DNA of 9,191 nucleotides, taken from the NCBI GenBank assembly GCA_002391185.1, contig DGRY01000041.1, positions 6,499 through 15,689 on the forward strand, written 5' to 3'. Position numbers and translations under genes: made by a program. Positions 698-9,191 of this stretch are shown piece by piece; the first letter of the stretch is position 1, and the number at the start of each line of letters is the position of its first letter. Source of the DNA: Prevotella sp. UBA4376. GTDB lineage: Bacteria; Bacteroidota; Bacteroidia; Bacteroidales; Bacteroidaceae. Below the pieces are notes generated by a model. It saw nothing but the letters and a program-made list of their open reading frames with translations, was not told where the DNA came from and made no database searches.

Positions 698-768
698 AAA
701 AAGCGCTTGGCGCTTCTTTATCATTTATCATTTGTAATTTATCATTTAGCGAAGCGCTAGCTTCGCGC
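698..768 (-). repeat. Double-hairpin heptamer repeat, copy 1 (trpB stop / trpB-trpE gap)
   Basis: Read on the minus strand the element starts GCGCGAAG, forms a first hairpin (GCGAAGC / GCTTCGC, 766-749) spanning the trpB stop codon, then carries four TGATAAA-type heptamers (one degenerate, TTACAAA). It ends in a second hairpin, AAGCGC-CAA-GCGCTT plus Ts (715-698). The same modules in the same order occur at 3712-3767 in the opposite orientation with only two heptamers. The second hairpin with its T-run resembles a weak intrinsic terminator on the transcribed strand. Confidence 0.85.
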
Positions 769-1935
769 ATTCAAATAGGTTTCAATATCTTTATCGCCGC
801 GACCCGATACGGTGAGCACAACAACATCGTCGGGGGTGAACTTGAGCTTACTCAGGGCAGCCACGGCATGAGCACTCTCAATGGCAGGGATGATGCCTTC
901 CATGCGGGTGAGTTCATAACCTGCCCGAATAGCCTCATCGTCGTTGATGGCGAGCACCTTCTCGCGTCCTTTCTCGGCAAGGTCGGCATGCATTGGTCCG
1001 ATGCCAGGATAGTCGAGACCTGCCGAGATGGTGAAGGCTTCTTGAATCTGTCCGTCTTCGTTTTGCATTACAAGGGTGCGCGCTCCATGAAGTATGCCCT
1101 CACTTCCGCAATGAATGGTGGCTGCGGTGTGGTCGGTGTCGATGCCATGTCCACCAGCCTCAGCAAGAACAATCTTCACACGTGTATCGTCAATATAATG
1201 ATAGATGGTACCCGCAGCGTTGCTTCCTCCACCAACACAGGCAATGAGATAATCTGGATAGTCACGACCAATCTTCTCTTCGAGCTGCTGCTTAATTTCC
1301 TTTGAGATGATGCTCTGCATCTTGGCTACTATGTCGGGATAAGGATGTGGTCCCATGGTAGAGCCTACAATATAGAAGGTGTCTTCGGGGTGACAGCACC
1401 AGTCGCGAATGGCCTCAGAACATGCATCAGAGAGTGTCATGTTACCCGTACGCACAGGGTGAACGGTGGCTCCAAGCATCTTCATACGTTCAACGTTGAC
1501 ATGCTGTCGTTCTACATCGGTGGCACCCATAAACACTTCACACTTCATATTCATAAGGGCACACACGGTGGCTGTGGCAACACCATGCTGACCAGCGCCA
1601 GTCTCGGCAATGATACGAGTTTTGCCCATTTTCTTTGCCATGAGAATCTGTCCCACGGTATTATTAATTTTATGAGCACCCGTATGGTTGAGGTCTTCGC
1701 GCTTGAGATAGAGTTTGCAACCATATTTCTCACTCATGCGGTTGGCATAATAGAGAGGTGAAGGACGTCCCACATAATCGCGAAGAAGCGCATAGTATTC
1801 ATCTTGAAACTCTTTGCTCTCAATGATAGGAAGATACGCTTCCTGAAGATCGTGAACACACTTGTATAATATTTCGGGCACATAAGCTCCGCCAAAGCGC
1901 CCAAAGAAACCGTTTTTATCTACTTGGTATTTCAT
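757..1935 (-). CDS. trpB: Tryptophan synthase beta subunit
   Basis: TrpB is the PLP enzyme that condenses indole, channelled from TrpA, with L-serine to give tryptophan in the cytoplasm. The 392-residue length is normal. The PLP lysine is K89 in NHTGAHKIN, the catalytic glutamate is E111 in AETGAGQHGVA, the phosphate-binding loop is GGGSNA (235-240), and SGRGDKD (377-383) is the conserved C-terminal motif. The open frame extends ten codons upstream to 1965, but I chose the ATG at 1935: MKYQVDKNGFFGRFGG is the usual family N terminus and the extension MGEAYITFII has no family character. The last codons and the TAG stop lie in a hairpin-bearing repeat (698-768), so the C-terminal ARS residues are encoded by repeat sequence. 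trpA lies upstream across a 169-bp gap and trpE downstream. No substitution in the active site is apparent. Confidence 0.96.
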   Translation of the reverse strand: MKYQVDKNGFFGRFGGAYVPEILYKCVHDLQEAYLPIIESKEFQDEYYALLRDYVGRPSPLYYANRMSEKYGCKLYLKREDLNHTGAHKINNTVGQILMAKKMGKTRIIAETGAGQHGVATATVCALMNMKCEVFMGATDVERQHVNVERMKMLGATVHPVRTGNMTLSDACSEAIRDWCCHPEDTFYIVGSTMGPHPYPDIVAKMQSIISKEIKQQLEEKIGRDYPDYLIACVGGGSNAAGTIYHYIDDTRVKIVLAEAGGHGIDTDHTAATIHCGSEGILHGARTLVMQNEDGQIQEAFTISAGLDYPGIGPMHADLAEKGREKVLAINDDEAIRAGYELTRMEGIIPAIESAHAVAALSKLKFTPDDVVVLTVSGRGDKDIETYLNARS

Positions 1936-1952
1936 TATTATGAATGTTATAT

Positions 1953-2102
1953 AAGCCTCCCCCATCCCCCTTGACGCATTGCAGGCAATGCTAATTAATA
2001 ATGAATATTGAATAATATTTCAATTTAAACAATATATAATCACTCATTATCATTAATCAGTTTGTGCTCCTCCCCTATCGGGGAGGTCGGGAGTGGCTTT
2101 TT
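1953..2102. repeat. C/T-rich intergenic element between trpA and trpB
   Basis: The left end reads AAGCCTCCCCCATCCCCC (1953-1970). The right end holds the hairpin CCTCCCC-TATC-GGGGAGG (2069-2086), followed by TCGGGAGTGGCTT. The reverse complement of the right end (AAGCCACTCCCGACC) resembles the left end, so the element has imperfect terminal inverted repeats about 150 bp apart. Inside are a further inverted repeat, GCATTGC / GCAATGC (1976-1991), and AT-rich filler. Related CCTCCCC / GGGGAGG sequences are, as I recall, widespread in Bacteroidales intergenic DNA. It could be a degenerate non-autonomous mobile element; no clear target duplication was found. Confidence 0.6.
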
Positions 2103-2104
2103 TT

Positions 2105-2875
2105 TTATTTTAGTATTAATTTTAATTGTTTCAACGCTTCATCGGGGTCGTTATACTCGTTGAGAAGGCTCACAAACTTGCTACCAATGATTGCTCCAGC
2201 GGCATTGTCTTGAGCCGATCTGAGAGTTTGCCTATTGCTGATGCCGAAACCTATCATGCGAGGATTGCGAAGATTCATTGAGTTGATATGATTGAAATAA
2301 GCCAGCTTGGCATCGCCGAAACTGCTTTGAGCACCAGTTACGGCTGCCGAAGAAACCATATAGATGAACCCTTCGGTGTTGTCGTCGATGAAACGTATGC
2401 GCTCATCGGATGTTTCGGGGGTGATCATCATGATTATTCTTATGTCATATCTGTCAGCTATTGGCTTAACAACCTCCATATAGTCTTTGAAAGGCAGATC
2501 GGGGATGATGCAACCACTAACTCCACTTTCCTTGCAGCTTGCAAAGAACTTTTCCAATCCATAGTGCATCACGGGATTGAGATAGCCCATGAGAATGAGC
2601 GGTATATTCACCTCGTCCTTGATGACAGCAAGCTGAGAGAAAAGAATACTAAGAGTCATTCCGTTCTTCAAAGCTCGAGTGCCGGCTGCCTGAATAACGG
2701 GACCGTCGGCAAGAGGATCGCTGAAAGGAATGCCCACTTCAACACACGCTATGCCATGGCGTTCCATAGCACGAATCACATCGGCTGTACCATCAAGAGT
2801 GGGACAGCCCGCACAGAAATACAATGAAAGTAAACCTGTGGGCTTAGACTGAAATAACTTATCTATTTTGTTCAT
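2105..2875 (-). CDS. trpA: Tryptophan synthase alpha subunit
   Basis: TrpA cleaves indole-3-glycerol phosphate to indole and glyceraldehyde 3-phosphate and passes indole through a tunnel to TrpB. The 256-residue TIM barrel has the hallmark VEVGIPFSDPLADGPVIQ, containing catalytic E46 and D57. Loop 6 is SSAAVTGAQ, and the phosphate-binding segments GFGISNRQT and AAGAIIGS follow near the C terminus. The ATG at 2875 gives MNKIDKLFQ, a normal start. The stop codon (TAA at 2107-2105) abuts a T-rich run that ends the C/T-rich repeat of the trpA-trpB gap. trpF is 122 bp upstream. The protein contains no tryptophan, in keeping with its role in making Trp under starvation. Confidence 0.96.
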   Translation of the reverse strand: MNKIDKLFQSKPTGLLSLYFCAGCPTLDGTADVIRAMERHGIACVEVGIPFSDPLADGPVIQAAGTRALKNGMTLSILFSQLAVIKDEVNIPLILMGYLNPVMHYGLEKFFASCKESGVSGCIIPDLPFKDYMEVVKPIADRYDIRIIMMITPETSDERIRFIDDNTEGFIYMVSSAAVTGAQSSFGDAKLAYFNHINSMNLRNPRMIGFGISNRQTLRSAQDNAAGAIIGSKFVSLLNEYNDPDEALKQLKLILK

Positions 2876-2958
2876 GATACATAAGATATCCTCTCCTCGT
2901 CAATTTCCGATTGTAAGGGAAGAACTAACTGTTTACATTTTAGATTGTCTATCAACAA

Positions 2959-3000
2959 TTTGTACTCCTTCACTACCAGGATGGTCGGAAGGGGCTTTTA
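2959..3000. repeat. Diverged copy of the C/T-rich element end (trpF stop)
   Basis: TTTGTACTCCTTCACTACC onward aligns without gaps to 2061-2102: 33 of 42 positions match by eye. The hairpin of the other copy is largely eroded here. The last three bases, TTA, are the trpF stop codon on the minus strand, so both copies end at or just before the stop codon of the upstream trp gene (trpF here, trpA in the other). Confidence 0.65.
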
Positions 3001-3705
3001 CTTGATTTTGCTTAGAAATTTCTGTATCTTTTCCACATCCTTAACAGCTGGGGCAGTTTCGAACTTGCTGTTGAGGTCGATGCCCACACACTTGGGATGA
3101 TGAAAGGCAAGGATGCGCACGTCATCGTCGGGTCCTATACCACCACTAAGCAAGAATGGTGTGTTGCCTGCGTAGCGTGAAAGCACCGACCAGTCAAACT
3201 GTTCGCCGCTGCCTCCCACCGTGGTACACTTGGTATCAAAAAGAAAGAGGTCAACATGCCCCTCATAGTCCTTGTATTTATCAATATCCTCGGGCTTTTC
3301 GATGGAAATGGCTTTGATAATTTTCAAACCTGGTTTGATGTCGGGATCAACAGTACATCGAAGATTATCAATCATAAACACACTCTCGTTGCCATGTAGC
3401 TGCACATAATCGAGATTATAGTTATAGATGCGTGTGATAATATTCTGTGGCATCTCATCGACAAAAACACCAACAAAATGCACATCACTCTTGCTACTAT
3501 CAATTTGCTGCTGAATAGAACCATGCTCACGAATATTCTGCAAGCGCAGCTCACTATAGTCAGGGATGATTCCTGCCTGAGAGGAAATCATTCGCACGAA
3601 ACGAGGAGATTTGGGATAGAATATTAGTCCTATCAAATCGACTCCCAACTGAGATACTGCGTGAATGTTATCGGCATCACGCATGCCACATACTTTTATT
3701 AGCAT
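2998..3705 (-). CDS. trpF: Phosphoribosylanthranilate isomerase
   Basis: TrpF catalyses the Amadori rearrangement of phosphoribosylanthranilate to CdRP. The start MLIKVCGMRD carries the general base C6, and the general acid is D157 in LFLFDT. GGSGEQFDW, LSGGIGPDD (187-195) and VGIDLNSKFE (207-216) are the phosphate-binding and C-terminal motifs. At 235 residues it is longer than the roughly 200-210 usual for single-domain TrpF. The excess falls mainly between PKSPRFV and HFVGVFVDE (about residues 38-76), a polar stretch of unknown role. ATG at 3705 is well placed. The TAA stop (3000-2998) coincides with the end of a diverged C/T-rich repeat. A double-hairpin repeat fills most of the 95-bp gap to trpC. 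Confidence 0.95.
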   Translation of the reverse strand: MLIKVCGMRDADNIHAVSQLGVDLIGLIFYPKSPRFVRMISSQAGIIPDYSELRLQNIREHGSIQQQIDSSKSDVHFVGVFVDEMPQNIITRIYNYNLDYVQLHGNESVFMIDNLRCTVDPDIKPGLKIIKAISIEKPEDIDKYKDYEGHVDLFLFDTKCTTVGGSGEQFDWSVLSRYAGNTPFLLSGGIGPDDDVRILAFHHPKCVGIDLNSKFETAPAVKDVEKIQKFLSKIK

Positions 3706-3711
3706 AAACCT

Positions 3712-3767
3712 GCGCGAAGATAAGCTTCGCTAAATGATAAATGATAAACAAGCGCAAAGCGCTTTTT
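3712..3767 (+). repeat. Double-hairpin heptamer repeat, copy 2 (trpC-trpF gap)
   Basis: On the plus strand GCGCGAAG is followed by CTTCGCTAAATGATAAAT, with two TGATAAA heptamers, and then the hairpin AAGCGC-AAA-GCGCTT with a T-run. It aligns end to end with the copy at 698-768, apart from a 14-bp (two-heptamer) length difference, one further single-base gap and a few substitutions. It lies in inverted orientation to that copy, so its T-run is on the strand opposite to trp transcription. It occupies most of the gap and ends 6 bp upstream of the trpF ATG. Confidence 0.85.
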
Positions 3768-3800
3768 ATTTATACTTAGATACGCAATCAACGGTAAGCG

Positions 3801-4592
3801 TTAAAGTTTTTGGGTAAAAAGCTTTAATGCCGCTCCCGGATCTTTTTCTTTCATGAAACACTCACCCATGAGGAAACCACGGTATCCCACCTCGCGTAAC
3901 CGCTTTACAGTGGCAGGATTATTAATGCCACTCTCGCTAACCTTGCACACACCTTTGGGAAGTCGCTCAGCAAAACGGAAACTATTGTTGACATCGGTGA
4001 CAAAACTACCAAGATTGCGGTTGTTGATTCCATACATATCTGGTTCAAGTTCGGCATATTCAAAATCGCGTTCATTGTGCATCTCGAGCAGAGTTTCAAG
4101 CTGCAACTGATGAGCAAGATGCTGAAGATCGGCACAACGCTGCTTTGAGAGACAGGCAGCTATAAGCAAAACGGCTGAAACTCCACAATATTTTGCCTGG
4201 AAGAGCTGATATTCATCGATAATGAAATTCTTATATAGAATAGGAAGTGTGACACCTGCTGCACGAGCCTGCTGTATATACTCGTCGTAACCACCAAAGA
4301 AATTGGTGTCGGTGAGGATGCTAAGAGCTGTTGCACCACCCTCTTGATAAGCTGCGGTAACAACCTCGGCCTTGGCATCTTGATGAATCCAGCCCTTAGA
4401 AGGCGACTTGCGCTTGAACTCGGCAATGATACCTGTTTCGGAATCCATCAACGACTGGCGCATGGAAGGATTGGTGTTTCCTTCATCCATCATCTGCTGA
4501 ATAGCAGGCATAAACTGCTGGAGAGGAACGTAGCGCATGCGCTCATCAATCTCCTGACGCTTATAAGCAACTATTTGTTCTAATATATCCAC
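3801..4592 (-). CDS. trpC: Indole-3-glycerol phosphate synthase (GTG start)
   Basis: TrpC closes the indole ring, turning CdRP into indole-3-glycerol phosphate with loss of CO2 and water. The 263-residue (beta/alpha)8 protein has the motif IIAEFKRKSPSKGWI with E58 and K60, LSILTDTNFFGG, the general-acid lysine K121 in LYKNFIIDEYQL, E170 in LLEMHNE, GINNRNL (188-194) and SESGI (219-223). All catalytic positions appear intact. The start is GTG at 4592 (VDILEQIVAYK in literal translation). It is the only plausible start before the family motif, and no ATG lies in a better position. trpD is 62 bp upstream, across a gap of degenerate ATTGAAA-type repeats. TrpC is a stand-alone gene here, not fused to trpF as in enterobacteria. 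Confidence 0.95.
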   Translation of the reverse strand: MDILEQIVAYKRQEIDERMRYVPLQQFMPAIQQMMDEGNTNPSMRQSLMDSETGIIAEFKRKSPSKGWIHQDAKAEVVTAAYQEGGATALSILTDTNFFGGYDEYIQQARAAGVTLPILYKNFIIDEYQLFQAKYCGVSAVLLIAACLSKQRCADLQHLAHQLQLETLLEMHNERDFEYAELEPDMYGINNRNLGSFVTDVNNSFRFAERLPKGVCKVSESGINNPATVKRLREVGYRGFLMGECFMKEKDPGAALKLFTQKL

Positions 4593-4600
4593 GGAGCAAT

Positions 4601-4637
4601 ATTGAAAGATTGAAAAATGGAAAATTGAAATATTAAT
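4601..4637. repeat. Degenerate ATTGAAA repeats in the trpD-trpC gap
   Basis: ATTGAAAG, ATTGAAAA, ATGGAAA, ATTGAAAT, ATTAATT follow one another with a 7-8 bp period between the trpD stop and the trpC GTG. The unit differs from the TGATAAA and ATTACGA units in other gaps of the operon but has the same size and base composition. It is short, so chance AT-richness contributes. Confidence 0.45.
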
Positions 4638-4654
4638 TACAAAGGTAAAGAGAA

Positions 4655-5659
4655 TTAGGAATTAAACTCAACAAATTTCTTAAACACTTGCTGAGCACTA
4701 CCAGAATCAATACTCTCACGAGCTATTTCTATACACTCTTCAATAGTTTTCTTTCCACTCTCGAGAACCTGAATAGCAAAACCAGCATTGGCAAGAACAA
4801 TATTCTTCTGAGCAGGCAAAGCCTTGTTGGCAAGAACACTATCAAAGATGGCTGCCGCCTCTTCCTCAGTGGCACCACCAACAAGTTCTTCAGGTTTGGC
4901 TATTTCAAAGCCAAGATCCTGTGGACGGAAAATCTTTTCGTAGTTGTTGGTTGTTACCTTGAAATCGCTGGTGAGCGAAATCTCATCGTAACCATCAATG
5001 CTATTAACGATTCCGTAATCAATGCCCAACTTCTGGAACACTTGATTGTAAAGACGCATCTGATCAAGATTGGCTGTGCCAAGAAGCTGACACTGTGGCT
5101 TTGATGGATTAATGATTGGACCAAGAAGATTAAAGAATGTAGGGAAAGGGAGTGCCTTGCGAGTGGGACCAACAAACTTGAAACTCTTGGCAAAGAGCTG
5201 AGCATGAAGATAAACAATACCAACTTCGTTAAGACACTTATTGAGCTTGTCAACATCATCGCTAAAACAAACACCATGATTCTTTATAACATTTGAAGCA
5301 CCACTAACCGATGTTGCTGCATAATTGCCATGTTTAGCTACCTTATAGCCTGCACCAGCAATAACAAAGCACGATGTGGTGGAAATGTTAAAAGTGTTCT
5401 TGCGGTCGCCACCAGTGCCTACAACATCAATATAGCGGTCGGCCTCAAGAGGAACAGAAACACCTGTCTCAAGAACACCATCACGAAAACCAAGAAGTTC
5501 ATCAACCGTGATTCCTCTCATCTGAATAGCTGTGAGCAGAGCAGAAATCTCTGCATCGTTGAACTCACCCCGAGTAATGCCCAAGAGAACTTGCTTTGTT
5601 TGTTCACGAGTGAGTTCCTCATGATTGAGCAGAGAATTGAAAAGTTCGTTTACATTCAT
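4655..5659 (-). CDS. trpD: Anthranilate phosphoribosyltransferase
   Basis: TrpD joins anthranilate to PRPP, giving phosphoribosylanthranilate, the second pathway step. The 334-residue length is standard. The PRPP-binding glycine-rich motif VGTGGD (80-85), NIST (91-94), KHGN (109-112) and the SVSGASNV anthranilate-site segment are present. LLGPIINPS and the metal-binding SIDGYDEIS follow. There is no TrpG glutaminase domain, so amidotransferase activity must come from a separate trpG outside the window. ATG at 5659 starts MNVNELFNSLL. This is the first structural gene of the operon. Its start is about 55 nt after the attenuator U-tract, so its transcription depends directly on terminator read-through. 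The protein contains no Trp. Confidence 0.95.
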   Translation of the reverse strand: MNVNELFNSLLNHEELTREQTKQVLLGITRGEFNDAEISALLTAIQMRGITVDELLGFRDGVLETGVSVPLEADRYIDVVGTGGDRKNTFNISTTSCFVIAGAGYKVAKHGNYAATSVSGASNVIKNHGVCFSDDVDKLNKCLNEVGIVYLHAQLFAKSFKFVGPTRKALPFPTFFNLLGPIINPSKPQCQLLGTANLDQMRLYNQVFQKLGIDYGIVNSIDGYDEISLTSDFKVTTNNYEKIFRPQDLGFEIAKPEELVGGATEEEAAAIFDSVLANKALPAQKNIVLANAGFAIQVLESGKKTIEECIEIARESIDSGSAQQVFKKFVEFNS

Positions 5660-5713: not shown

Positions 5714-5750
5714 AAAAAAGACCTGTCGCAAGAACGACAGGCCTTTTTTT
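5714..5750 (-). terminator. Intrinsic terminator of the trp attenuator
   Basis: Read on the minus strand, GGCCUGUCG (5743-5735), loop UUCUUG and CGACAGGUC (5728-5720) form a 9-bp stem with one G-U pair, followed by six U (5719-5714). The A-run before the stem can extend it against the U-run. The hairpin lies 38 nt after the leader stop codon and before trpD, as expected for an attenuator. Because T-runs flank both sides it could also stop plus-strand transcription. Confidence 0.9.
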
Positions 5751-5788
5751 ATATTCTTTAAATATCTACACGGCTCCGCGACTCACGA

Positions 5789-5842
5789 CTATTGTAATCT
5801 TGAGAAACGCCACCACCATGATGTAGATACTGTAAATGTCAT
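5789..5842 (-). CDS. trp operon leader peptide with three tandem Trp codons
   Basis: This 17-residue ORF on the minus strand reads MTFTVSTSWWWRFSRLQ and ends in TAG. Codons 9-11 (5818-5810) are UGG UGG UGG. It starts about 25 nt after the predicted transcription start and precedes an intrinsic terminator and then trpD. Three consecutive Trp codons in a 17-codon frame, against three Trp residues in the 1,480 residues of TrpD, C, F, A and B together, is strong evidence for a sensor peptide. By the classical trpL mechanism, ribosome stalling at these codons when Trp-tRNA is scarce would reshape the leader RNA and prevent termination. The sequence before the ATG is A-rich with no clear Shine-Dalgarno, as is normal in Bacteroidetes. 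The peptide itself is probably not functional as a protein. Confidence 0.9.
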   Translation of the reverse strand: MTFTVSTSWWWRFSRLQ

Positions 5843-5872
5843 CTTCTTATTCTTTTTCAGTTAATTTGGTTG

Positions 5873-5903
5873 CAAATATAACAATTTTCTACATAACAAC
5901 AAA
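5873..5903 (-). promoter_or_regulatory. trp operon promoter, Bacteroidetes type
   Basis: On the minus strand TTTG (5903-5900) is followed by a 19-nt spacer and TATATTTG (5880-5873), an exact match to the Bacteroidetes primary sigma consensus TTTG-N19-21-TAnnTTTG. The predicted start is near 5868-5865, giving a short untranslated lead to the peptide ATG at 5842. I see no palindromic operator nearby, which fits control by attenuation. Confidence 0.8.
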
Positions 5904-6235: not shown

Positions 6236-6892
6236 ATGAATACATTGGTTTCACCTTCTCTCCTGTCAGCTAACTTTCTTGACTTGGAGAGCGACATTAA
6301 CATGATTAATAATAGCGATGCCGATTGGCTACATCTGGATGTGATGGATGGCGAATTTGTACCTAACATTTCATTCGGTTTCCCTGTGCTCGAAGCAGTT
6401 GCCAAAGCATGCAAAAAGCCACTTGATGTGCATTTCATGGTTGTTCACCCTGAACGATGGATTGAGAAAACAGCACAATTAGGGGCTATGATGATGAACG
6501 TGCACTATGAGGCTTGCACCCATCTGCACCGCACAATACAAGAAATTCACCATGCGGGGATGAAAGCAGGGGTAACTCTAAACCCTTCGACACCTGTTAG
6601 CGTGCTCGAAGACATTATACGCGACGTTGACATGGTGCTACTTATGAGCGTGAACCCTGGATTCGGCGGACAGAAATTTATAGAGAACACAATAAGCAAA
6701 GTTGAAAAACTAAAGAAAATGATTGCAACAACAGGCAGTCAGGCTCTGATTGAAGTTGACGGAGGCGTAAACCACGAAACATCACCCCGACTTGTGAAGG
6801 CAGGTGTTAACGTACTGGTGAGTGGAAGCTATATTTTCAAGGCTACCGACCCTATAGCTACCATCAAGGCATTAAAAAAACTATCTGATTAA
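6236..6892 (+). CDS. rpe: Ribulose-phosphate 3-epimerase
   Basis: Rpe interconverts D-ribulose 5-phosphate and D-xylulose 5-phosphate in the pentose phosphate pathway, which also supplies ribose 5-phosphate for PRPP. The 218-residue TIM barrel starts MNTLVSPSLLSANFLDLESD. Metal and catalytic residues are all present: H33 and D35 in HLDVMDGEFVPN, H66 in LDVHFMV, and D175 in IEVDGGV. The phosphate loop VNPGFGGQKF (139-148) and the C-terminal VSGSYIF are typical. The frame is open to an ATG at 6164, adding 24 residues. I rejected that start because the family begins at the MNTLVSPSLLSAN position and the extension overlaps the end of the small ORF at 6048-6176. The stop TAA overlaps the stop of the convergent sigma gene. 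Confidence 0.96.
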   Translation: MNTLVSPSLLSANFLDLESDINMINNSDADWLHLDVMDGEFVPNISFGFPVLEAVAKACKKPLDVHFMVVHPERWIEKTAQLGAMMMNVHYEACTHLHRTIQEIHHAGMKAGVTLNPSTPVSVLEDIIRDVDMVLLMSVNPGFGGQKFIENTISKVEKLKKMIATTGSQALIEVDGGVNHETSPRLVKAGVNVLVSGSYIFKATDPIATIKALKKLSD

Positions 6893-7814: not shown

Positions 7815-9191
7815 CTATTTTGTTGTGCGCTTCTCGACCTCGGCTGATTTTGCAGTAAGTTTCTCTGCAGCAGTCGCCTTTTTCGCAACATTTTTCTTTG
7901 TTGCTGATTTCTTTATTGAAGTTTTCTTTGCTGAAGTTTTCCTCTCCAAAGGTTTCCCTTCAGCAAGAATCATCTTCTTTATCTTGGTCTGCAGATGATC
8001 AATTTCCTTATCCTTCATTGCTATCTCATCGCCCTGATTCTTTATTGTCGTGAGCAAGCTCTCGAGCTCATCATTATCTATGTCGGCAGGATAGAGATTG
8101 TTGACACGTGTAATAAAGTCGCCAAGAATATTCATGTAGTTAGTGAAGGCATCAAAAGGACTGCTATAGATACCCCGGTCAAGTCCCACATTACTTGGTT
8201 TAGTAGTCATGAATCGGAAATTATTGCTTGCCTGCAGATAATCCCAGTCTTGATTTATTCGTGGATCGTTGGCAATACGCACTCTGTCGGCAACACTATA
8301 CAGCTTGTTGAATGCCTCATACTGCATTGGATTACCAAGCCATGTTGATACATCACGTTCTTCATCAACCCAAGATAGAGAATCGGGCACATTAAGCACA
8401 TCAACAGCCTTTGCTTTCATGCACAACTCAGTTGGAGTGGAGAAAGTGATGCCTTTTTGCTTTGCGCATATAGGCAGAGCCTTGATAAACTCAAGAATGT
8501 TACTGCTCAATGGCTGAGCTATACCAAGAGCCGACAGTTCCATAAAGATGTTTATAACCTGCTCGCCCTCTGGAAGTGATGCTATACCTTGTATATAGTT
8601 GTCAGCAAAGAGAGGATATTCTTCCCACTCACTATTGTTGAAACGCAAAGAGATATCGTCGCTAAGTTTTACATCGCGCAAAAGCAACTTGAGCTTTGGT
8701 GCCTGAGCACAGCTATACACATAGTGAGGACTCTTCCAACCAAGAACATGCTTAGCTCCCTCAGTGAGCATACCTTTAAACCCCATCTGGCTTGCAATAT
8801 AGCCAATCTCGTCGCTATAGATAAGGCTTGAGTTACGGAGAACCTTTGGTGTCTGACCAAAATACTCTTGAATCTTAGCCACTTGCTTCTTGACATCAGA
8901 CTTGAAACACTCTTCGTTTGCCAAGGATGAAAGGCCATGAGAATAAGGCTCAGCAAGAAATTCTACACAACCTGTTTCATTGAGTTCCTGAAGTTTTTCA
9001 AGAACCTGTGGCGCATGAAGTTCAAGCTGCTCGATGCCTACTCCACTCAAAGAAAAAGCCACTTTAAAATATTTACCATTATCGTTGATCATTCGTTGAA
9101 TGGTAGTCAAAGCAGGCATATAAGAGCGCTCAACAATCTCATTGATGTTGCGCTCGTTTTCATAATCATCATAATAATAATGATCAGTACC
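7815..9191 (-). CDS. GH57 alpha-amylase-like protein, probably catalytically inactive (N terminus outside window)
   Basis: The frame is open to the right edge and encodes 458 visible residues. The first 24 are GTDHYYYDDYENERNINEIV plus ERSY, typical of the Bacteroidales GH57 alpha-amylase family. The upstream region with the first conserved HQ motif is missing. FLAEPYSHGLSSL, GFKGMLTEGAKHVLGWKSP, SWVDEERDVSTWLGN and FDAFTNYMNILGDF identify the family. Active relatives have RNTELIY with the nucleophile Glu. Here it is RNSSLIY (8837-8817), with Ser at that position. The proton-donor motif FMDYETFGEHQ is replaced by FMELSALGIAQ (8546-8514). Both catalytic residues therefore seem lost. The fold is otherwise intact, followed by a coiled coil and a Lys/Ala/Thr-rich tail (7944-7818). 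Alpha-amylase-like GH57 homologues without catalytic residues have been described in the literature. Its role may be glycan binding or regulation; this is inference. Confidence 0.88.
   Translation of the reverse strand, partial: GTDHYYYDDYENERNINEIVERSYMPALTTIQRMINDNGKYFKVAFSLSGVGIEQLELHAPQVLEKLQELNETGCVEFLAEPYSHGLSSLANEECFKSDVKKQVAKIQEYFGQTPKVLRNSSLIYSDEIGYIASQMGFKGMLTEGAKHVLGWKSPHYVYSCAQAPKLKLLLRDVKLSDDISLRFNNSEWEEYPLFADNYIQGIASLPEGEQVINIFMELSALGIAQPLSSNILEFIKALPICAKQKGITFSTPTELCMKAKAVDVLNVPDSLSWVDEERDVSTWLGNPMQYEAFNKLYSVADRVRIANDPRINQDWDYLQASNNFRFMTTKPSNVGLDRGIYSSPFDAFTNYMNILGDFITRVNNLYPADIDNDELESLLTTIKNQGDEIAMKDKEIDHLQTKIKKMILAEGKPLERKTSAKKTSIKKSATKKNVAKKATAAEKLTAKSAEVEKRTTK

Follow-up and report, generated by a model that had tools for sequence, protein, structure and literature searches.

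A Bacteroid-trp leader ahead of a trpD-first operon in Prevotella and a predicted antiterminator strand at its stop codon

A tryptophan operon in Prevotella sp. UBA4376 is headed by a short leader that contains three consecutive tryptophan codons and ends in an intrinsic terminator, which raises the question of how translation of the leader could decide whether the terminator forms. We addressed this question in a stretch of 9,191 nucleotides of contig DGRY01000041.1 (hereafter the window), in comparison with leaders from 49 genera.

The leader and the operon behind it

The attenuator region spans window positions 5903-5714 on the minus strand, on which a promoter motif, a leader with the residues WWW and a terminator are followed by trpD. 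The original prediction had proposed exactly these elements, including a leader peptide of 17 residues, and all of them lie in the proposed order at the positions given there. The first gene of the operon, trpD (4655-5659, minus strand; TIGR01245 289.5 bits, cut-off 199), starts with the ATG at 5659, and the operon continues on the same contig in the order trpD-C-F-A-B-E-G. The NCBIfam cut-off is passed by trpD, trpC, trpA, trpB and trpG, while the best match of TrpF is phosphoribosylanthranilate isomerase with a score under the cut-off, and a gene named from its own sequence is presumably trpE. A run of N inside trpE just past the window start (L002, about 6350-6500; an assembly gap or withheld sequence) leaves the trpE reading frame incompletely known. 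The gaps between the genes of the operon (757-5659) measure about 60-140 nt, which is wide for an operon. At the other end of the window, a partial open reading frame with a lysine-rich tail (7815-9191) matches Glyco_hydro_57 (PF03065, 160 bits). The host assembly is 71% complete, and some of the compared genomes are likewise incomplete.

A search of the window against Rfam returned a match to the Bacteroid-trp RNA (RF01692) over the full model length (5736-5865, minus strand; cmscan 54.7 bits against a gathering score of 49). The original prediction had suspected membership of this family, and the suspicion was borne out: besides the score, the window features the tandem-Trp leader reading frame (WWW, 17 codons) and trpD-C-F-A-B-E-G downstream. 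The locus is thus a Bacteroid-trp leader, a new instance of a known family that is itself a prediction. The match includes a leader hairpin, in which the side with the Trp codons pairs with the two segments referred to below as X and region 2. The remaining candidates were discarded, as Thr_leader (RF00506) scored 28.7 bits, far under its gathering score of 55, and IsrM likewise remained far under its own; none of the four Rfam matches of the window at E <= 1 was a T-box.

At E <= 0.001, matches to RF01692 came from 94 of the 399 genomes searched in the host's family, from 38 of 393 in its order and from 42 of 395 in its phylum, and among the phylum-wide matches listed, all fall into the class of the host or closer. 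These rates are underestimates, because stricter search filters lose weak matches. Nineteen of the 94 family genomes with a match score below the Rfam cut-off, and when seven leader sources were rechecked, four reached the gathering score and three (L202, L133, L229) stayed below it. For comparison we used 93 of 95 RF01692 places from the family search (G138 and G175 were left out), 33 of 34 matches outside the host's family from the order search (G638, at a contig end, was left out) and all 37 further matches from the phylum search. After removal of one leader without a detected terminator (L213), the comparison set comprised 202 of 203 leaders from 49 genera, 17 of them in the host's family and 32 outside.

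The promoter motif (5873-5903, minus strand), recognised by its sequence and by upstream conservation, consists of TTTG (5903-5900), a spacer of 19 nt and TATATTTG (5880-5873). We take TTTG-N19-TATATTTG to be the Bacteroidota-type housekeeping promoter consensus; a sigma-70 scan placed no promoter at this site. The shorter form TANNTTTG occurs within 160 nt 5' of the Trp codons in 195/202 leaders, as compared to 185/2020 letter-shuffled upstream stretches. The leader reading frame of 17 codons (5789-5842, minus strand), MTFTVSTSWWWRFSRLQ, runs from the ATG at 5842 to the stop codon UAG at 5791-5789. Its three tandem Trp codons, TGGTGGTGG (5810-5818, minus strand), are the predicted stall site; this string occurs once in the window, with no second copy within it, against 0.03 occurrences expected in shuffles. 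Across the comparison set, a run of two to four TGG codons is present in 201/202 leaders, and in the same number, L203 and L216 among them, the run is in frame with an ATG at most 90 nt upstream. One leader with no in-frame ATG and a misaligned terminator segment (L130) was retained in the set.

Between the leader reading frame and the first gene, where an attenuator would have it, lies the intrinsic terminator (5714-5749, minus strand) with a stem of 16 pairs, a loop of 4 nt and a U tract. Only two terminator-like sites were found in the window, against 0.2 expected in shuffles, and both are this one hairpin, read on either strand. A and U tracts flank the hairpin, and its plus-strand score is also terminator-like, in the direction of the divergent rpe. 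The leader folds with z = -5.6. A terminator-like hairpin was found in 202 of 203 leaders, and in an alignment of 74 leaders pairing holds for 96.8% of the stem cells and 11/11 pairs have changed on both sides. The start of a trp gene follows within 1500 nt in 201/202 leaders, at a median of 53 nt past the terminator; the sole exception has only 67 nt of sequence downstream.

Complementarity between the stop-codon segment and the terminator

At the leader stop codon lies an octamer, X (GUCGUGAG, 5782-5789, minus strand), which is complementary to an octamer in the terminator loop and upper 3' arm, T (CUUGCGAC, 5725-5732, minus strand). Comparison and folds suggest X as the 5' strand of an antiterminator. 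In the window, GUCGUGAG:CUUGCGAC forms eight pairs, six Watson-Crick and two wobble. Other leaders feature, for example, GUCGUAAG:CUUACGAC and GUCGUGAG:CUCACGAC, and in some both sides have changed with pairing kept, as in ACCGUGAG:CUUACGGU, AUUGUGAG:CUCACGGU and GUCGUGAA:UUCACGAC.

The two 8-nt segments were picked once inspection by eye had revealed the match. Each block, X and T, was subsequently aligned on its own and blind to the other, with alignment gaps in seven T and one X filled from neighbouring letters. On average 7.19 of 8 positions pair over the 202 leaders and 49 genera, with eight pairs in 96 leaders, seven in 66, six in 29 and fewer in 11. With one leader per genus, matched X and T form 6.955 pairs compared to 6.587 (sd 0.084) when T is swapped across genera, and 0/10,000 swaps scored as high, a permutation that does not fully remove relatedness. 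The three loop-side pairs, which are mostly unpaired in the terminator, likewise exceed their swapped controls (2.51 vs 2.21; 0/10,000 as high). Sliding X by 1-3 nt reduces the count to 2.0-3.6 pairs. At the level of single positions, a C at T3 is accompanied by G at X6 65 times and by A twice, and a U at T3 by A 73 times and by G 51 times. X8:T1 is unpaired in 51/202 leaders and X7:T2 in 42/202. A check independent of any alignment of X to T gave a concordant picture: among about 115 upstream octamers, T scores highest with X in 179/202 leaders, as opposed to 21/1,010 with scrambled T; in 43 of 49 genera this holds for half or more of the leaders, and it holds for the window leader itself.

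In the 74 aligned leaders (up to three per genus), 90.8% of the X:T cells pair and 7/8 pairs show changes on both sides; on each of five measures 0/500 shuffles reached the observed value, and sliding by 1-3 columns lowers the paired cells to 15.6-54.4%. In order to place the changes on a phylogeny, we used a TrpB tree that covers 132 leaders and 30 genera, on which 92/141 inferred changes end paired, compared to 60/141, 52/143 and 59/143 in controls with mismatched positions, and on which six cases were found of both pair sides changing on one branch with pairing kept. The excess on the tree is clear but not overwhelming, and it is less extreme than that in the permutations, in which relatedness is not fully removed. 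The 37 leaders of the same class outside the host's order, most of them from family f124, which we take to be Flavobacteriaceae, average 6.68 of 8 pairs. Eleven of the 202 leaders have at most five X:T pairs (L154, L161, L162, L163, L205, L214, L225, L229, L230, L231 and the misaligned L130), and some of these may rely on a different antiterminator or register. Conservation of the complementarity can, like the promoter motif, the reading frame with its Trp codons and the terminator, be read directly from the sequence and its comparison. The complementarity and covariation indicate that X:T, which the original prediction had not named, is likely the antiterminator; since T is common to both structures, the predicted helix would be mutually exclusive with the terminator.

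The spacing of X relative to the Trp codons would suit such a role. X starts 20 nt past the TGG run in 124/202 leaders and 17 nt past it in 44/202. With a stall on any of the Trp codons, the ribosome would cover about 10 nt past the last of them, so that during a stall X should be free and its partner strand in the leader hairpin partly covered. An in-frame stop codon lies inside X in 151/202 leaders and between -8 and +14 nt of the X start in 190/202. In the window the last base of the UAG is also the first base of X, so that a terminating ribosome should cover X. In the other 12 leaders the stop is at least 21 nt past the X start (L009, L019, L079, L089, L090, L095, L125, L139, L142, L158, L160, L225), which reflects either assembly frameshifts or a stop codon that is no longer at X.

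Folding predicts alternative states of the leader RNA. To represent the stall, the RNA was masked as far as 13 nt beyond the first base of the first Trp codon with T just emerged, and X:T was scored as present at five or more pairs. Under these conditions the minimum-energy fold contains X:T in 182/202 leaders, as compared to 22/1,010 with scrambled X, whereas unmasked folds contain it in 32/202. With the ribosome at the stop codon the count is 0/202, which proves nothing as the mask covers X. The upper stem of the terminator (four or more pairs), again with T just emerged, forms in 6 stalled, 127 stop and 115 unmasked folds out of 202. For the window, the predicted stalled fold has -20.5 kcal/mol and combines the eight X:T pairs with eight inner pairs (5780-5772 with 5743-5735), while with no ribosome the whole leader is predicted to adopt the leader hairpin plus terminator. 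Once transcription has passed the complete hairpin, the fold of lowest energy is the terminator in 200/202 leaders despite a stalled ribosome; antitermination must therefore be kinetic and take place during transcription.

The inner pairs involve region 2 (5772-5780, minus strand), which in the stalled fold is the predicted strand opposite the lower 5' arm of the terminator (5743-5735), equivalent to the classical 2:3 pairing. In the first 139 leaders 40/5000 swaps were as good as the matched pairs, and in the full leader set 158/4000, with 283/4000 for a spacer control. The mean energy of 2:3 with one leader per genus is -4.6 kcal/mol, as compared to -1.6 for the spacer. An inner helix is thus energetically plausible, not established, and we propose it tentatively; a purely classical 2:3 antiterminator comes out weak by the cross-genus swaps.

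Operon arrangements downstream of the leader

The original prediction held that absence of the WWW reading frame and terminator in close relatives would speak against it. In genus g1, where trpD is present in 44 of 60 genomes searched, tandem Trp codons precede the first trp gene at 41/41 loci (G417/L171 and G437/L172 were left out), and a single locus (L213) has no terminator by the criteria used, so that such an absence is not what the relatives present. Sixteen of the 41 loci are trpD-first, with the leader before trpD, and the other 25, L213 among them, are trpB-first (order B-E-G-D), with the leader before trpB. The leader of g1 thus tracks the first gene of the operon and no particular gene. 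It is present as well in G446 (L237), beyond the 41 loci, and a leader (L203) was found in G246, which had no match in the family Rfam search.

Further leaders were reached with an X...T pattern that needs no Trp codon. The search, run on 151 genomes, is unspecific, and a backward control pattern matches many as well. In seven genomes from this search, selected by eye and hence a biased choice, 8/8 matches are tandem-Trp leaders before a trp-type gene. The pattern led to leaders missing from the family Rfam list (L239, L240, L241, L242, L245), and two second leaders (L243, L246), likewise missing from it, were reached in the same way.

At one locus (L102 in G202; 501-641 and 5472-5614) the operon is split: a leader with trpB-E-G is followed by a DUF5128 beta-propeller gene, a second leader and trpD-C-F-A, and the two leader peptides are near-identical. 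G069 and G087 likewise carry a second leader before trpD (L243, L246). A second leader in this place may represent a stage on the way to the D-first order found in the window. In genus g21, a WWW/WW leader with X:T lies ahead of a TrpB-like gene (L241 and L242) with 26-27% identity to the TrpB of the window; the gene of L242 scores 703 bits with NF009057 (cut-off 366). It is probable that the same design, with few exceptions, runs through the 49 sampled genera and precedes permuted and split trp operons as well as a TrpB-like gene.

A model of attenuation and its relation to known leaders

We propose, with a probability of roughly 80%, that the Bacteroid-trp leader controls trpD-C-F-A-B-E-G by ribosome-mediated attenuation and that the stop-codon segment X serves as the antiterminator strand. 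When charged tRNA-Trp is low, the ribosome would stall on the three Trp codons and leave X (5789-5782) free; X is then predicted to pair with T (5732-5725) and to block the terminator, so that the trp genes stay on. The inner helix (5780-5772 with 5743-5735) may precede X:T and draw X towards T. With ample charged tRNA-Trp, the ribosome would get to the stop codon in or beside X and cover X, and the terminator would form. In the absence of a ribosome, the leader hairpin is predicted to sequester both X and region 2, with the terminator next to it. The positions of the ribosome, the timing and the response to tryptophan are those that we infer for such a leader.

The leader could also work as in E. 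coli, with an antiterminator made of region 2 and the 5' arm of the terminator only, X being kept for the hairpin and the end of the peptide and its match to T incidental. Region 2 is able to pair with the 5' arm at the mean energy given above, and X does pair within the leader hairpin of the Rfam model; however, the loop side of T, mostly unpaired in the terminator, co-varies with X (0/10,000), and X:T surpasses its swapped, slid and scrambled controls by far more than 2:3 does its swapped ones, which makes this reading unlikely. We consider it very improbable that the element is a fixed insulator, in which the terminator does no more than reduce trp transcription or protect against read-through and the leader peptide is no sensor. 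The A/U tracts on both sides and the terminator-like character on both strands would suit an insulator, but over 49 genera in-frame Trp codons (201/202), the spacing of X and a trp gene downstream (201/202) have been kept, and in g1 the leader heads the first gene of the operon in 41/41 loci despite differing gene order. Finally, X is nearly constant in many genera, as might be expected of a protein site, for instance for a NusG-like antiterminator, with T merely repeating the complement; since the two-sided changes ACCGUGAG:CUUACGGU, AUUGUGAG:CUCACGGU and GUCGUGAA:UUCACGAC fit pairing and not recognition of fixed letters, we give this explanation hardly any credence.

The Bacteroid-trp RNA was predicted in 2010, as described in passages of Weinberg et al. 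(PMC2864571). The window leader resembles RF01692 in a score above the threshold, the tandem-Trp leader reading frame, the leader hairpin and the trp genes downstream. The model as aligned is limited to the leader hairpin and stops within the 5' arm of the terminator, whereas the window adds the 3' arm and X:T. For Flavobacterium psychrophilum, a passage of PMC6414381 draws on the analogy to E. coli and describes a conserved Bacteroid-trp element that precedes the trp operon; it contains neither an antiterminator nor a test. The passages of PMC2864571, PMC6414381, PMC4833913, PMC2965389 and PMC7819879 hold no description of an X:T antiterminator, and in the open-licence literature we found neither a test of Bacteroid-trp nor an antiterminator for it, though the supplements of PMC2864571 may hold an earlier description. 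Another study reports that Bacteroidia ribosomes fail to recognise Shine-Dalgarno sequences (PMC9976891). The leader makes a clean reporter for coupling of ribosome and RNA polymerase in Bacteroidia, and an antiterminator with defined bases makes Bacteroid-trp testable by point mutations.

In the trp attenuator of E. coli, the antiterminator 2:3 captures the 5' arm of the terminator. The window leader shares with this system the Trp codons of the leader reading frame, the leader hairpin, the intrinsic terminator and a ribosome that, at the stop codon, would mask the antiterminator strand. In contrast to E. coli, the helix for which the comparison argues more strongly in the window would capture the loop and 3' arm of the terminator by way of the stop-codon segment, while capture of the 5' arm is the more weakly indicated of the two.
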